A stretch of DNA of 64,000 nucleotides. Origin: Halisarca cf. caerulea. Taxonomy: Eukaryota > Porifera > Demospongiae > Chondrillida > Halisarcidae. The notes under the pieces were generated by a model. It had not been told where the DNA came from and made no database searches. It was given only the letters and a program-made list of their open reading frames with translations. The stretch covers positions 1,039,401-1,103,400 of the forward strand of contig CAUJGJ010000040.1 in NCBI GenBank assembly GCA_963170055.1, given 5' to 3'. Shown piece by piece: positions 2,758 to 51,684 of the stretch; the stretch's first letter is position 1, and each line of letters opens with the position of its first letter. The translations under genes and the position numbers were made by a program.

Positions 2758-3808
2758 TTAACCCTCGTACCCTCACTGTACATTAGCGCGTGACCGGAAG
2801 TATTGTCAAGGGGGTGAAGTTTGTGTTCGATTTGCGTCTAATAAGGAATTTTGCTGCATTTGTTCCTCATCTCCATGATAGAGTATTGAATAAGGTATCT
2901 GGTAGTCCAAGTTTGGTGTCGATACGATCTACCAGTCTCGAGTTTTGATACCCGAAGAAGAAAATGGCCGCCGCAAACCCTCTTCCGTGAACTTCAAGAA
3001 TATTTATCTAAAGAACAGAATCATATTGCTTCCAAGACGTTATAGTTACTTCAATACTAACTATAAGCTTATTGTTTGATAGACAGTATAGGATGACAAA
3101 ACTAAGGATGAAGCCACAAAACTACGTATTTCATGTACGTGTAAAAGTAATCCATTACGGTCCACGTAGGAATCTCTATACAACTCTGCATTGGTAATTG
3201 TGCACCCGCCCGTGCTTATAGGTGCACCTATTTACTGTCAAGACCATTTTGGCGCAGAACACTTCAGTTGTCGTACCTTATAAAAAAGAAATGCCAAAGC
3301 GAACAACACGAGCAATTCCAACACTGCAATCGACATCCTTACGTGGGATTGCAGTCTCTAACAACTGATATTTGCACTTCAAAACATGTTTTTTCTCGTT
3401 CTTGGATGTAAGGAAAGCCAAAACTTTCATTAGAAGTGAAATCTTTCCACGACGACGAAAAAGCCATTCCAAACGACGCCATTTTCCCTATCATATCCGT
3501 AAGGGATACGGAAACTTTTACGGGGATAAGCGGGATATTGTCGTAGATTCGTGAGCATAATTTATACGGGCTACACCTATCGTTATGGCTGTATAATTGT
3601 AGGAAACTCCTCTATCGATCGCTAAACCTATCCTTTGGCTAACTTTTGGTACCTGAAGCGAGTTTCTAGCACATTCCTGCGGTTAGATAAATATTAATAA
3701 TAATAATAATAATAACTATACACTTACGATTAGCTACAGATACAAAATTAATACAGATACAGCTAAATAATAATAATAATATGTAACGTATGAGGGTACG
3801 AGGGTTAA
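2758..3808. mobile_element. Non-autonomous TTAA-flanked TIR element
   Basis: TTAA target duplications at 2758-2761 and 3805-3808 enclose inverted ends CCCTCGTACCCTCA and TGAGGGTACGAGGG. TTAA duplication is the mark of piggyBac-type (also Kolobok) elements. The 1.04-kb interior carries no transposase I can recognise and includes ATA/AAT trinucleotide runs at about 3690-3780. Confidence 0.7.
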
Positions 3809-43886: not shown

Positions 43887-45429
43887 TTAGAACCATTCGA
43901 TTATCCCCTTCTTTTCCCCAAATATTACCGGACCAATATCCATCAAAGCCATTGTATTCTACATCAAATTTTTTATAATTACTATTTGTCAATCATGTTT
44001 TTGTGTGGTTGCAGATTACTAACCTCAATTTCACCACTTGTGATAAGCAGTCTAGTTTATTCTGACAATCACCTGAGAGTGGTATAATGGCCATATGCAT
44101 GATATGTGTTAAATTTGTTGACATTGTGTCCATGAGATTTACACACAGTGTATCTTAACTTTGGAATCCTTGAAATCGCGCTCAGAATCTCAAAACTCCC
44201 GCCATATAGCTACGTAATCATTTGCAATTAGGATATCATACGTATTAATGGTCTGATAATGAGGCTGATTTTCTGCTTTTCAGTGGCAGAGAATACATTA
44301 ACGCAAGCGACCAGACCACATTATTTTGAAGGCGCCTTCAGGGAATCAAATTAAGCGATGTTTTCGTTCACACGACGGCGTACATGACAGCGTGTACTTA
44401 TCAAACTTTCCAGGCTGAGCATACAAAGCTATAACTACACGTGCTGCTGTACCTGGTAGGGGTCGCAATAAAAATAATGGACACTTTTGGAATCTCTCGA
44501 AATTTGGTAGGCAGATAGAATCTAAATAAAAGAATATAATGCCGCTTTTCGTTTATCGATTGATCGTTATGTCGCCGAGTTATACACAAAAATTCACCGT
44601 TTTGAGGACGCGCGAGAAAGAAGACCACACTTACGAAGGTCGAAGTAGAACGAATCATTCCCAAAGTTTGTGTGTTGAATACCACTATGTTAATCTACAA
44701 TGTGCCACAGAGAGAAGATTTCAAAGGACACTGTTAGCAAAGTAACCCAGCAAATATCCGACAAGACTCTCTAGCACGACTCGCGCGGAGCCCTACTCCT
44801 CAGTCAAACTTGACACACAACAAACCCTCACGCTGCATCATAGCCTACTATGTCTCACCTTGACACAGGACAAGAAGTGGAAAGATTACTCTCCTAAAAC
44901 CACCTGGTTGACAGTGACTTTCGGCGGGACCGTATGTACTGATTTTAAGCATACAATTTTTAGGTATTATAACATAGAAATAGCGAATACACATTTAAGC
45001 AAAGACAGTCACGATATATATGAGGACTGAATAATATGCTAAAACAATAGCAACTTGTCTATGGTATTTAGGATCATTGCAGATCTACTTTAATCACGTG
45101 ACTGGAGTGTGAACAAGGGGACAGGAAAATGGTGGCAAGAAGGACAGAAATTCATATTAACAAACTGTTAAAACCCAACAGAGGTTTGTGAAGATAGTCT
45201 GCATGATTTATGTAAATATTTTTTTTTCATACTAATCATTTATATCATAGAAGTAACTAGTTGACCTGTGGTAACTGAGTCAGCCTCCTGCCAGTGGCAG
45301 AACAGTATCGGATATGGCAGGGGAGGCATGCACAGATGTACAAACTTGGGGAGTTGAATCATAAACTCCATGCAATGCTAATGTTCAATGACAGATATCA
45401 GGTGCTGAGCTCTGCATACTGCAATATAA

Positions 45430-48400
45430 TTACTGTTGGATCACTGTTGGATTCAGTTTCAAATCTCCTAGAGCCCAGTCCACTTCTAACGCAAAATGAC
45501 ATGGCTCTTCCTCATTTTCATACAGAACGGTGTATTTTCCATTTGACGCATCAAAATCTAATACTCTTCCTGTAAACCATATGTATTCTTGCTTTCTTTC
45601 ACAAAAAACTTGTGGCTTATACTTCTTCCTACTAGTGAGCTACTTTTCATGCCACCATGTTCGGAATCCACAGGATTCTTGTCCATGATGTCTTTAAAAG
45701 TTTGAAGTAACTCATTTACAGGTATTGGTTTCCCTTTCTTTGTGAAAAACATTTGAAGGTTCTGTTGGTAGAGAATCTTCCGTAGTTTGAGCTGTGCTTT
45801 TAGCACCTCTTTTATCTTCCCATTTCTTTGCTTCTGATTAAGCATGACATCACTTTCAATAGATTTGATAATTTTGTCCATTTGTTGTATGCTATTGATC
45901 ACAAGTATATCTTTCATATCTTCTGCTTTTCTTCGTTTCAGGTTCTGTTTCTCTATATCCTTCTTCATGATGCTCTGACGTAATTCATTTCTCTTCAAAG
46001 CTTCTTGATTGTCTAACCGCCTCACTTCTTTCCTTTGAGAAGCAGCCATTTTAATTGCAGTGTTTTGCTTTTCTGCTGGAATTGTATCAAGCCATTCAAC
46101 TGTTTTGTTTTTTTCGCTTCAATAATGTTTCGCTTGGTTAGTTGGCTAGCGCTTGGCATGGAAGTTTGAAGCCAGTCATTAAGCCCAAGGATGGACTCAC
46201 ACACATCATTGCTCGGCTCAATTTCCCCAAGTATTTTGGCAACATTAGGTGGTGGGTCCCAGTATTTACCTCCTGGCAGTTGGTCTTTAGCATAGCTTTT
46301 CAATTTGTTCCGCATTGACCTGGCACCCTTTGAAATTTTTTCCAATGTCATTTCAAAGAGGACATCTGAATCTTTTTGTAACAGATGTGAGTATACAGCA
46401 ATGTTCTCTGGTTTGTGCCGGTGGTTCAGTTTTCCATCATCATACAACGCAGGCTCAGACCCAAACACTTGCACACATTCATCAAAAACTACACAAGGAT
46501 TTTCTTCAATATTCTCTAGAAATCCATCCAGTTCTAAGTAGTGTATACTCATGTCTTTAACACTTTTGTTCAATTCCCTGGACTTTGCTAAACAAGTGAG
46601 GTCTGCATATACGTGAAGGAACATCAATCCGTCTGCCTTTAAGCCTGCAATTACTGACAGACTATGAAGTTTAACATATACTTCGTTCTCTAATTTGTTT
46701 TTCCTAAAAACTTCCAAAAAGCTCAAGGCTGCCTCTTGTAAGAAAAGGATTTTGGCAGCATTGTGTGCAGTAACAAAGTACCTGCTTCCAACCTGCCTTG
46801 CAAGATGTACCTTTTTACATAGCTCATAGTAGTCCTTCCGGCTTGCCTCAGTTTCAAGATTGGCTTGCACTTCTAAAAAGTCTGGGAAAGTTGTCACCCC
46901 ATGGCCACATTCATTTGTTCCCTTGCTTCCAAACAACTTACAAAATTCATGTACAGTAATGTCTGTCTCAAAACGTTGTCTGCATCCACTGTTGGTCTCA
47001 ACATTATCGCTGCCCTGCATAAATGCATGGCGCAGATTTATACCAAGATGCATAGCACAGAATGTGCTAACAATTTCTGCTCCCTCTTTAGTTGATGTAT
47101 CTCCAAATTCTATTGTATCTTCTTCCTTGAGCTCTTGTGCTATCCTGTTGAACTTCTTTTGTGTAGCGGCAGAATCAGATGTCAAAGCCCCAACAATTGA
47201 CCAATTTATAGAGTTAGCATTTTTCATTCCTAAATCATTCGCTACTTTTCGCAGTCTTTGCAGCTCTTTGGAAATATTCTTGGCTATGTCCTCAGCTGCG
47301 CCACTGCTGACTTCATTAACTGCAAGAACCAATCCATTTGCAGATGCTGCTGCTATTTTACGCTGAGACAGTGTGGTCCCATCTGTATTCAAATGTATCA
47401 TTTGACTATTGCATAATGCTGATGCTTTGTGAATATCACATAGTGTTTTCATTTCTTCTCTCCGCATATAATTTGCAGTGGATGCCTTGGGGAGATTCAG
47501 TTTAGATGGATCACTAATAGGTGCCAAGTGTTCTACAACATTCTTTACGGTTGATTCTACTTTGCCGGGAGGTATGCCTGATGTTAATAGCTTGTAGTAT
47601 AATTTTCGGACTGTGGCATTGTATGACTTTCCTTGCTTTGTTTTTGTCAGTGGATGTGGACTCATATTGAATTTCTCATTTTTGTGGGGTGATTTGTCTT
47701 GACAATATTGGAACGACTCATCATGTGATGTGATATGTGCACATGGTGTTTCTATATCATACTGATATTGTCTAATATTTGTTGTAGTTCATTTTCATAC
47801 TTGCATAGTTCCATTTGTAAAACCTCATTGTTTTTCTTCAATGCTGAAATTTGTTTTTCATACTTTTTCACAAGATTTTCCATTGCCAGAGCATGCCCCA
47901 AATCTAAATCATTGTATTCAATGACATCCTTTTTATCCTCATCCAATTTGCATCTACTCAATATACTCTTTGTGCTGCAATCCATGCACTGGCAGTTGTT
48001 ATCACTGCAGTGTATTGGTACATCACTATCGACTTCTGCAACAGATACTGTCGGAACATCACTTACTGCCAGTGGGCTGTTGTGTCTTCTGGTTAACTTG
48101 AATGCTTCATGTTTGTTGTCATTTGTGCTGATCTGTCGTTCTATATACCGGTATACATTGTCAGGCCTCATCTTCTTATCCAAAAAGGGATCTATTGCCA
48201 AATAAAATTTGCCCACTGCAGTTTTTGTAGCATTACGTGTGAAACACCACCGTTTCAAAAAGCTATGTAAATGCTTGTAGAAATTGATTGATGGCCTTTG
48301 TGTGAATGCCAGTACAGGGAAACATTTTTGTGCATTTGTAAATGCTGCCTTTAATGCTTCTTCATGAAACCCTTCTTTTACTACAGCTTCAGGTACTTTC

Positions 48401-49310
48401 AATGCTTCTGCACCTATATATATTGTCAATGTAAAAAAATAATGTATAATGCTGGTATATTCCTATTAGTATATATAAGTATGCACTATCTATATGCAGG
48501 CACATATATACTGACTATATAGTCTTAGAAATTATAGTGATATATGACAGCCTGGCAGTCATTTTAGAACCATCATTTTTTGTTCACTTCCCTCATTAAC
48601 AAGTATAATATTATATCCTTTGTTTTGATGCCAATGTCACTGTATACAGGTACATGTTGCTTATGCAGTATTTTCATAGCCAATGTGTGTGATGGAGTGG
48701 GTGGGTGGGTGTTTGTATCTCTATATATGCGTGTCTGCATGCTTCTGAGAGTGTGTGTGTGTCACGATATATGTGTCTGTGTGTGTGTGTGTGCATGTGT
48801 GTGTGTCTGTGTGTATGTGCGTGTATGAAACATGTGCACAACCTACCTGTTACACTTCTAATTCTAGGTACCCATTCTTTTTGTAAATATTCATGTTTTG
48901 TGGTCATACTTCCAAAACAAGTCCTTTCACTTTTAATAGGGGCTGCAATACGCTGTGCAGCTTCAAGTAGTCTGCTTGGCCTTGATGGAAGTATGGCAGA
49001 TGGGTATTCCTCCTTAAGTAGCTCATATAGTACATTTGCAACATGCTGGCCACTCTTATAAGCTTGGTGTTCTGCCAATTCCAGTATCCGAATGACATCA
49101 CTGTATGTTGGTGATCCTGTATTATGTATAATATGCCGGATTATTTACAGGACTCATGCCATTCTGTTTGTATTGCTATTTGATTAATACTACTTTTAAC
49201 TTACCTTTATCTACTTGAGCATGCAAACGCCGAGTCTTCACTGGACCTGGATTTAGCTCAATCCCACTGATGAGTAGCAAAACCAAGGAGATTAGTAGTG
49301 CGGTTTTCAT
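45430..49310 (-). CDS. Large protein of the TAGGGGTC element, candidate transposase
   Basis: Exon 1 (ATG 49310 to 49205, donor GTAAGT) encodes a hydrophobic leader ending in a 2A-like motif. Exon 2 (49116-48847, donor GTAGGT) joins it with phases 1+2, and exon 3 (starting 48413) joins exon 2 the same way. Exon 3 holds HCSDNNCQCMDC and then a coiled coil. The frame changes near 47750, and a 547-codon stretch to 46022 follows, with IHLNTDGTT, GALTSDSAATQK, FCAMHLGINLR and NDVCESILG. This spacing of acidic residues recalls DDE/RNase-H-fold enzymes, but I infer that. After another frame change in an A-run near 46115 come a Lys-rich coiled coil and, past a third change near 45630, a Tudor-like end (IWFTGRVLDFD, GKYTVLYENE), stopping at 45430. 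The frame changes are either tiny introns or damage. About 1,080 residues in all. Confidence 0.65.
48690..48835. repeat. (GT)n-rich microsatellite in an intron
   Basis: GTGTGT runs, with a GTGGGTGGGTGG patch at about 48697-48711, lie just downstream of the exon 2 donor in the large gene. Confidence 0.9.
49242..49268 (-). other. 2A-like (StopGo) motif, SGIELNPGP
   Basis: The leader of the large protein ends LISGIELNPGP. Functional 2A peptides end D(V/I)ExNPGP, where the ribosome skips the last Gly-Pro bond. Here the Asp expected before I-E is absent and Gly takes its place, as if one codon were lost from SGDIELNPGP. With ATG at 49310, the motif ends at residue 23 after a hydrophobic core, like the combined signal-peptide/2A leaders reported in some invertebrate proteins. 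Confidence 0.6.
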
Positions 49311-49514
49311 TGTCTTCCAGCAGAGACCAATGCAAAGTTGTTTGCTGATCTTGGACTGAGTGTTGTGTTTAAAGAACACAGTTTGACAATTGAAAATTCC
49401 AATTTTGGCTCGCCAAGCAACCAGAGAGATCATTTCTGCATATTGGTGACACTATATTATCATCACATTTAATTGTATTGTATATTAGCCATCCGCTCAC
49501 CTATACGCCTAAGA

Positions 49515-50099
49515 TAGGGGTCACAATGAAAAATATCATTGCTGTCGGAAACATCCGAAAATAATGTTTTAGATGAAAGTCAGTACGGCGAATCTAATAG
49601 TGGTGACCGTTTTTCGATTGGTTGAAGTATGTCCAAGTTATGCGTAAAATCATATTTTGCTGCAACGCAGGTGGTTTAAGTAGAGCAACCTCCCCCAATT
49701 TTCTGCTATGGATAGCCAAGGGATGGATCATCCTTGCACAGCGTGAGGGTTTGTTTCGCGTATGTTTCGAGCTTGTAAGGACGTTTAGTGTGGAAATTTC
49801 GGAGACCCCCCTCCGACAAATGCAAGGATAACTGTCCGAAATACGTCTTTCCTAGTCGATCATGACAGTGGTGAGTATCTGCTACAATTTTGGATCCATT
49901 TCATTTAACTCCGCATTGGTGGAAAGTAGTTTTCTCGCGCGCGTTGCACCACAATTTTGATTAATTTTTATGCATAACTTGGTCATACTTCGACCAATCG
50001 AAAAACGGTTACCACCATTAGATTCGCCGTACTGAATTTCATCTAAAACAGTATTTTCGGATGATTCCGATGGCAATGAATTTTTCATTGTGACCCCTA
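49515..50099. mobile_element. MITE with TAGGGGTCACAA termini and 7-bp duplication
   Basis: Ends TAGGGGTCACAATGAAAAA are inverted over about 190 bp (49515-49680 against 49925-50099). The 7-bp duplication CCTAAGA lies at 49508-49514 and 50100-50106. The termini match the enclosing 6.4-kb element in the first 12 bases but differ further in, so it is a sister family, probably mobilised by a related enzyme. No coding. Confidence 0.85.
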
Positions 50100-51159
50100 C
50101 CTAAGAACGAGATCGATTCGAATTCTGCTTAATTATTCTTGATCAAATAACTCTGATTCAAAAATTATTACCCGCCAAACATCACGTGTTCGTGCATGCA
50201 CGTGACTTTAGAGTTGATGATGCTCAATTTTATACGTAGTCGTCGAAAGATTTTTTCCGAGGATGTTTCTAACGATATGACCTTGGATTGACAAGATAGA
50301 GGAATAAAAACTACTTTGAAACGCTATTTTACGTAATTATGAAGCTAAAGTAGCTTTCCGATTGGATTTTTCAGCTGCAACGAGTTAGGCGCTATCATCT
50401 AGGTGGTTCTAGGAGAGTAATCTTTCCAATTCTTGTCCTGTGTCAAGGTGAGACATAGTAGGCTATGATGCAGTGTGAGGGTTTGTTGTGTGTCAAATTT
50501 GACTGAGGAGTAAGGCTCCGCGCGAGTCGTTTTAGAGAATCTGTCGGATATTTGCTGGGTTACTTTGCGAACAGTGTCCGTTGAAATCTTCTTTCCGTGG
50601 CACACTGTAAATTAACATAGTGGTATTTAACACACAAGATTTGGGAATGATTCGTTCTGCTTCGACCTTTGTACGTGTGGTCTTCCTTCTCGCGCGTCCT
50701 CAAAACGGTGAATTTTTGTGTATAACTCGGCGAAATAACGATCGATCGAAAAACTAAAAGCGGCATTATATTCTTTTATTTAGACTCTACCTGCCTACCA
50801 AATTTCGAAAGATTCCAACAGTGTCGATTTTTTTGTTGCGACCCCTATACCTGGTTTATCGACCAAACCTGCGAACTTCATTGTAATCCCCAGTCATCAA
50901 AGTGGTCCCAGGATGAAAGAGCATGCAAGAATAAAATCGAAATTTCGAAGCGTTTAGGAGAAATCCTTATTTTAGACGCTAGAAAACGGCACCGAATCCG
51001 CCAGGTATGTGACGTCATTGGGGAGACCCTAAAGAACAACGTCACATGTCATGACATCATGTGACATCATCCAGAAGCCCGTAAATAGCGTGGATCTACT
51101 GCACTAGTTGATCCCATAAATCCAATAATAGCTAAAATGATTGTATTGAATGTGCTTAC

Positions 51160-51684
51160 CTGGCTGGATACATCTCCCAATTCACGATCAGTTGTGTATG
51201 GTGTTTTGATACAAGCTATTGGTGTTGGCAACACAAAGGGAGAAGTTTTGTTGAAGAGTAAGTAGTATGTCATTGTAGGTAAGTACACTCCAAATTCAAG
51301 ATATGACATTTTACTCTGAATGCTGTATATTGATGAAGTTGTCCACATGTGCCATTGTAATTTCTGATAAGTATAGTTCAGTGTTGGATAGGTTTTCCAT
51401 GGGTAGGTTCCCTGGGAGCACTCGGGAGGAAGCTGATCTGTGTAGTTGGTGAAGTAGGCCAAGATGAAACTGGCTGGTTTGGCTTGATTGACGGGATAGA
51501 AGGCCTTGAGGAGTTGTTGGTGATTGTCAGAGTAGACTTTGATGGAGTCCAGTACTTCCTGAGGATCATCACAATACTGCATAGTATTGCAAGTACCGTT
51601 GACCAAACTGAGTGAAAGTAGGAGTTCGAATACATGAAATATCGGTAAACTCTCTAGGTTCATGTCTACTGATGTTTGAAACAA
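51160..51684 (-). CDS. Membrane protein, proximal exon with signal peptide and ectodomain
   Basis: The frame starts at ATG 51684, with a second ATG at 51663 that would put the hydrophobic stretch (LPIFHVFELLLSLSLVNG) at the very N-terminus, as in a signal peptide. The mature part has several Cys (GTCNTMQYC, PPECSQ, ACIKTP) and N-glycosylation sequons (NGTC, NYTD, NYTY, NKTS), fitting an extracellular domain. The exon ends ...GDVSSQ at CAG|GTAAGC (donor at 51159). The reading past the donor (VSTFNTIILAIIGFMG) is intronic, though it could encode a membrane helix if unspliced. The intron to 40071 is 11.1 kb and holds the Merlin and two other elements. The distal exon adds about five membrane segments. 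Family not recognised. Confidence 0.6.

Follow-up and report, generated by a model that had tools for sequence, protein, structure and literature searches.

What kind of transposase leaves 7-bp target-site duplications in the genome of a sponge? The question is raised by a stretch of 64,000 nucleotides from Halisarca cf. caerulea (contig CAUJGJ010000040.1, positions 1,039,401 to 1,103,400; hereafter the window), in which a 585-bp element without a gene (49515-50099) is nested inside a larger, gene-bearing element (44457-50847). Our analysis shows that the larger element is a real DNA transposon of a recently mobile kind. It is very probably a decayed copy from a cut-and-paste lineage, the transposase of which has a core of the hAT/Hermes type and joins the element ends to target positions 7 bp apart.

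The large element starts with TAGGGGTCGCAA and ends with TTGCGACCCCTA, with TACCTGG on either side. Its inverted repeats of about 463 bp agree in 425 of the 465 columns of their alignment, and arms of 293 and 156 nt reach 92% identity. The nested element starts with TAGGGGTCACAA and ends with TTGTGACCCCTA, and is flanked by CCTAAGA; without it and its additional 7 bp the large element measures 5799 bp. The 12-mer TAGGGGTCRCAA is found with zero mismatches at 44457 and 49515 and, on the minus strand, at 50088-50099 and 50836-50847. With one mismatch tolerated there are again four matches, against 0.40 expected and a maximum of three in 100 shuffles. An earlier reading of the sequence alone (the sequence-only reading) had proposed that these ends and the 7-bp duplications mark a transposon family, which is borne out by the end matches, the inverted repeats and the flanks of genome copies. 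The perfect duplications it reported for both elements were confirmed by direct reading. The tips of the two elements do match over roughly the first 12-20 bases, but one of the first 12, all of which had been taken as common to both, differs. The genome assembly, of 194 Mb in 454 contigs, was searched with the terminal probe 44457-44905, as that reading had proposed. There were eight matches: both window ends, a long copy that lacks its outermost 16 bases (L002), and five that are partial or diverged. Three matches (L006-L008) resemble related ends, and no partner end was found for them within the stretches read.

The small element has 158 first-look candidates in the genome, of which 40 were scored. 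We read the flanks of all 41 matches that span it from end to end, the window copy included. The resulting table of flanking 7-mers, also suggested by the sequence-only reading, shows an exact 7-bp duplication in 38 of the 41 copies; the other three have 8 bp (L012), 9 bp (L051) and one mismatch (L055). When the flanks of the first 30 copies were mispaired, a common 7-mer appeared in only 2 of 870 pairings. The 38 target sites all differ from one another. Symmetrised, they form a weak palindrome, YMTWAKR, strongest at its A/T centre (0.51 bit), and T and A are additionally favoured three bases outside the duplication. At one locus (L058, G000:C40:180915-182291) a small element lies inside another small element, with ATGCAGG duplicated. 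Subtracting the insert and one repeat from the outer length leaves 585 bp, and therefore the target had ATGCAGG once before the insertion, which makes it a direct empty site. The listed copies are mostly 98-99% identical, and hence their movement was recent.

Gene-bearing elements were found with a 588-residue piece of the transposase that holds the catalytic core. This search of the genome returned 49 matches, of which 16, not counting the window, fall in stop-free frames of 800 to 1004 residues with most of the query covered. Two of them (L059, 5326 bp; L060, 5331 bp) are 99.7% identical, have the ends TAGGGTTGACAATG and one 978-residue frame each, and are flanked by ATATAGC and ACCAAGG. Their inverted repeats are about 468 bp long and 97.4% identical when an end of one copy is compared with the opposite end of the other, and end sequences of this type have twelve matches in the genome. 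L063 is a third near-identical copy of about 5.3 kb, with an uninterrupted transposase frame and the duplication TATAAGG. The cores of this subfamily are 54-55% identical to that of the window. A more distant element, L064 (core 51% identical), has the ends TAGGGGCGCCAACG and one frame of 979 residues, and is flanked by an 8-bp duplication, GCTACGGC. Among the eight gene-bearing stretches L059-L066, paired ends with a duplication are present in four, three of 7 bp and one of 8 bp. The bases adjoining the ends of L064 (1976-7480) permit other parses of its duplication.

In the window the gene lies on the minus strand, in three exons compatible with splice signals and phase. Exon 3 consists of four segments over three different frames, and so this copy has three frame breaks. 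It is decayed, although decay and assembly error look alike base by base. In relatives exon 3 is a single frame (981 residues in P0002). The spliced protein of about 1,000 residues proposed earlier fits as a three-exon model but is not one open frame here. The exon model is supported by a search of eight loci, in which the leader and exon 2 match L064 (E 1.7e-25) and, at E about 1e-19, L059, L060 and L066. Exons 1 and 2, the first of which reads MKTALLISLVLLLISGIELNPGP, hold a feature absent from the sequence-only reading, namely a leader with a 2A-like motif. The pattern [DG]xExNPGP occurs once in the six frames of the window and in none of 60 simulated windows, and in the four sequences examined the 10-12 residues ahead of it average about 3.0 in hydropathy. 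A hydrophobic stretch followed by this pattern near the start of the frame is found in the window (49242-49310, minus strand), in L059, L060, L063 and L066 (GGIESNPGP), and in L064 and L065 (GGIEMNPGP), that is, in three subfamilies. In L059 there is no in-frame Met among the 40 residues preceding the motif. A TG-rich simple repeat (about 48690-48830) lies in the second intron, and similar repeats lie beside several related loci.

The catalytic core is predicted to adopt a DDE RNase-H fold interrupted by a large all-helical insert, as in the hAT transposase Hermes. The two models agree with the earlier proposal that NTDGTT, TSDSAATQ and NDVCESILG carry the three acidic positions of such a fold. 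This D/D/E triad is kept in 103/103, 103/103 and 99/103 aligned relatives, the Glu position having three gaps and one Lys. In a structure search Hermes was the top match for both models; the match runs over about 338 residues, takes in parts of the helical insert and holds a constant register throughout. The predicted core also resembles that of Hermes in the spacing of the triad and in a CxxH after the second Asp. Other transposase structures, among them P-element and RAG, do not appear among the structural matches listed, an absence that excludes nothing. When pieces of the window gene were searched against Pfam, NCBIfam and PDB sequences, all matches were sub-threshold. The homologs of the core form at least 317 protein clusters at E <= 0.001, from 7999 candidates that were scored; a Pfam domain is present in five of the best 120 of these clusters, and in none is it recognised as a transposase family. 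An IMG/VR scan for a virus-borne relative (query A2) gave 12 pattern matches and no confirmed one.

The sequence-only reading had also noted a Tudor-like end. Sequence and fold similarity sharpen this to a C-terminal Spindlin-type Tudor domain (E 5e-9) that corresponds to repeat 2 of Spindlin. A PDB profile search returned Spindlin, an Arabidopsis Tudor domain and, for the N-terminal helix, coiled-coil noise. Tudor repeat 2 of Spindlin-1 is a reader of histone H3 trimethylated at lysine 4 (H3K4me3); Spindlin-1 has three repeats, whereas the transposase has one. At three of four cage positions of Spindlin the aligned residue is aromatic, and at the fourth it is mostly Cys. In the sequence alignment the invariant Trp is shifted by one residue from W151 of Spindlin, with the following Phe/Tyr in register, and because of this offset an intact methyl-lysine cage is not claimed.

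Several results weigh against a cut-and-paste lineage with a hAT/Hermes-type core. Whole-chain Foldseek superpositions on Hermes are poor (template modelling score by query 0.19-0.24 and 0.28-0.34, root-mean-square deviation 16-19). Among 16 members of the family none matches a Pfam transposase family at E <= 1, whereas a hAT control, L067, matches PF05699 at 1.8e-25; a further Pfam scan agreed, among 25 of 28 families listed. The control came from a genome search with PF05699, and its relatives were gathered and 49 of them aligned for a profile comparison. Against this one hAT clade the family gave E 0.09-0.21 in non-corresponding columns. Five shuffles and a reversal gave E 0.013-0.43, so the hAT values are no better. 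The long inverted repeats and the 7-bp duplications are atypical for hAT. Among the gene-bearing relatives, the 8 kb of L061 (core 71% identical, 967 residues) contain a right end alone, the 7.5 kb of L062 (39%, 1004 residues) lack inverted ends, and L065 (97.6% identical to L064) and L066 show no duplication-flanked pair of ends in the stretches read. The NPGP motif was not found in the stretches read of L061 and L062. The small element has only its tips in common with the large one, which does not pinpoint the transposase that moved it.

The TAGGG ends fit the hAT terminal rule, YARNG. This favours a deep hAT clade akin to hAT5, hAT6 and hAT7, perhaps one already named hAT in Repbase, that acquired a Tudor domain and a 7-bp stagger, an explanation that we consider evenly poised. 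The top structural match to Hermes and the 8-bp duplication of L064 point the same way. Typical hAT elements have 8-bp duplications and inverted repeats of 10-25 bp (PMC3942097), whereas here the repeats are about 463 bp at 91-92% identity (about 468 bp and 97% in L059/L060), and the duplications are of 7 bp in the window, L059, L060, L063 and 38 of 41 small copies. However, hAT groups with 5-, 6- and 7-bp duplications (hAT5, hAT6, hAT7) have been published, so length is not strict in hAT, and a 2015 Repbase paper takes as its worked example the extraction of hAT families annotated '7-bp TSD' (target-site duplication). The hAT7 elements of rust fungi share with ours the 7-bp duplications and a hAT-like enzyme, recognised there from sequence and here from the predicted fold; as described, they are hAT by transposase similarity and cluster with fungal and plant hAT elements (Ac, Tam3), and many carry a TET/JBP gene (PMC12730594). 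Against a hAT clade stand the missing sequence link in the 16-member scan and in the profile test, made with one hAT clade, and the absence of any BED finger match (PF02892) at E <= 1 from the 16 members and from window exons 1 and 2. By eye, moreover, no listed PF05699 match lies within 10 kb of the listed family loci. By eye, the order of motifs in L067 is similar to that in the family, which we do not use as evidence. On the negative profile comparison hAT membership is not claimed: the transposase appears from its predicted fold to work like a hAT enzyme and is not filed as one. The earlier statement that the protein does not look like hAT thus holds for sequence, but not for the predicted fold. 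A separate superfamily, which would have only the RNase-H core and helical-insert architecture in common with hAT, is quite possible, if somewhat short of even. It would account for the absence of sequence-level convergence, the long inverted repeats, a different set of domains (NPGP leader, coiled coil, core and Tudor) and the 317 homologous clusters, among the best 120 of which no Pfam domain is recognised as a transposase family, although the end-to-end register of the Hermes match speaks against it.

Two further explanations seem to us very improbable. Dada, P (Galileo-like) and KDZ (Kyakuja) elements have duplication length alone in common with the present ones. We rejected Dada, which inserts into multicopy small RNA genes: the target sites differ, no Rfam RNA gene was matched at gathering score in 20 stretches, and there is no tRNA in window 43900-51400; here the sequence-only reading, which had set Dada aside, is upheld. 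P/Galileo and KDZ were rejected as well, there being no THAP, P-type, KDZ or other transposase model of Pfam at E <= 1 in the 16 members. Galileo does have 7-bp duplications and long inverted repeats, but it is of P type, with the target consensus GTAGTAC (PMC2775673), against the weak YMTWAKR here. Kyakuja has 7-bp duplications and CA..TG ends without inverted repeats, in contrast to the TAGGG ends with long ones. The same reading had called 7-bp duplications rare and known mainly from Dada, which is too strong; with Galileo, Kyakuja, fungal hAT7 and the hAT entries that Repbase had by 2015 they are not new. It is just as improbable that the gene is a passenger between ends moved by another enzyme. 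The small elements lack a gene and outnumber the gene copies (158 candidates against 49 match rows), but the gene lies between paired, duplication-flanked ends in the window, L059, L060, L063 and L064, and three of these loci are near-identical copies at different sites.

On the preferred reading, a cut-and-paste lineage with a Hermes-type core, the three-exon transcript would yield a leader-bearing product. Ribosome skipping at NPGP may then leave part of the product free for the nucleus and send part to the secretory path, which would cap the dose of transposase. In sea urchin NLR proteins an N-terminal hydrophobic stretch ending in NPGP is both signal sequence and recoding element, and its products have been shown to go partly to the cytoplasm and partly to the secretory path (PMC4981915); here such a split is putative. 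The motif there is D(V/I)ExNPGP, whereas here SGIELNPGP, GGIESNPGP or GGIEMNPGP stands on a DNA transposase. A GxExNPGP motif has been reported active in a duck picornavirus (PMC6249498), and a 2026 StopGo paper repeats the sea urchin case in a main text that does not contain the word 'transpos' (PMC12846837). To judge from the fold, the transposase most likely cuts at TAGGG-type ends through its D/D/E centre; the duplications show that these ends are joined to target positions 7 bp apart. The Tudor end may recognise a methyl-lysine mark, either H3K4me3, as Spindlin does, or a different one, and may thereby hold the complex on marked nucleosomes and steer insertion. Gene-less elements with matching tips were presumably moved in trans.

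We put forward only tentatively, and as a rather unlikely extension, that this is a separate superfamily, common in public sequence data, that combines a hAT-shaped transposase with its own histone-mark reader, used in choosing insertion sites, and a dose-limiting ribosome-skipping signal peptide. In our literature search no paper was recognised as reporting a transposase that has a 2A leader or a Spindlin/Tudor end, a weak negative, as most subscription journals, preprints and Repbase Reports were outside its scope. If the preferred reading is right, a large lineage without a name, of at least 317 protein clusters, is added to the hAT-like transposases. Integration directed by a protein domain could be tested in a simple enzyme, a cut-and-paste transposase that brings its own chromatin-reader-like domain, and the 2A-type leader would be an unusual means of limiting dose. 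One predicted fold with duplications mostly of 7 bp, and of 8 bp in one subfamily, would allow the rule of target spacing to be compared, and the uninterrupted frames in near-identical copies make experiments practical. The features of the window are collected in Table 1.

Table 1. Features of the two elements and of the transposase gene, in window positions
Feature	Position	Strand	Basis
Target-site duplication TACCTGG, left of large element	44450..44456	.	direct reading
Left terminal inverted repeat, large element, ~463 bp, starts TAGGGGTCGCAA	44457..44919	+	direct reading, repeat alignment
Exon 3: coiled coil, catalytic core, helical linker, Tudor end; three frame breaks	45430..48413	-	four segments
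Spindlin-type Tudor domain, across a frame break, boundaries approximate	45433..45650	-	sequence and fold similarity
588-residue open piece with predicted catalytic core	46025..47788	-	homologs, model, Hermes match
Predicted Glu of triad (NDVCESILG), residue 531 of piece	46196..46198	-	model, alignment
Predicted second Asp (TSDSAATQ), residue 205 of piece	47174..47176	-	model, alignment
Predicted first Asp of D/D/E triad (NTDGTT), residue 136 of piece	47381..47383	-	model, alignment
Exon 2	48847..49116	-	splice sites; homologous in L059, L060, L064, L066
Exon 1: hydrophobic leader and 2A-like SGIELNPGP (motif codons 49242-49265)	49205..49310	-	splice sites, phase, motif, conserved leader
Target-site duplication CCTAAGA, left of nested element	49508..49514	.	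direct reading
Nested 585-bp non-autonomous element	49515..50099	.	direct reading, genome copies
Target-site duplication CCTAAGA, right of nested element	50100..50106	.	direct reading
Right terminal inverted repeat, large element	50385..50847	-	direct reading, repeat alignment
Target-site duplication TACCTGG, right of large element	50848..50854	.	direct reading

The genome also holds older copies of the large element. L040 is diverged, with many stops, and L039 has lost its left tip through another insertion. L039 contains twice (about 665-694 and 3598-3623) another repeat that ends in the palindrome TAGGGGCTGCCTGCGGCAGCCCCTA; one of these insertions cuts the Tudor end off from the remainder of the gene, and the other takes the place of the left tip. 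Alongside this transposase lineage the genome is rich in ordinary hAT elements, with 150 matches to PF05699 scored. The most divergent full-length relative, L062 (1768-4779 on the minus strand of G000:C195:986300-993800), has no stop in its 1004 residues and is possibly a domesticated copy. Core-like pieces also lie in very long open frames at G000:C369:4443084-4444735 (3873 residues), C369:10356328-10356795 (2130) and C452:500224-500559 (5131), which may be either host-gene fusions or chance.

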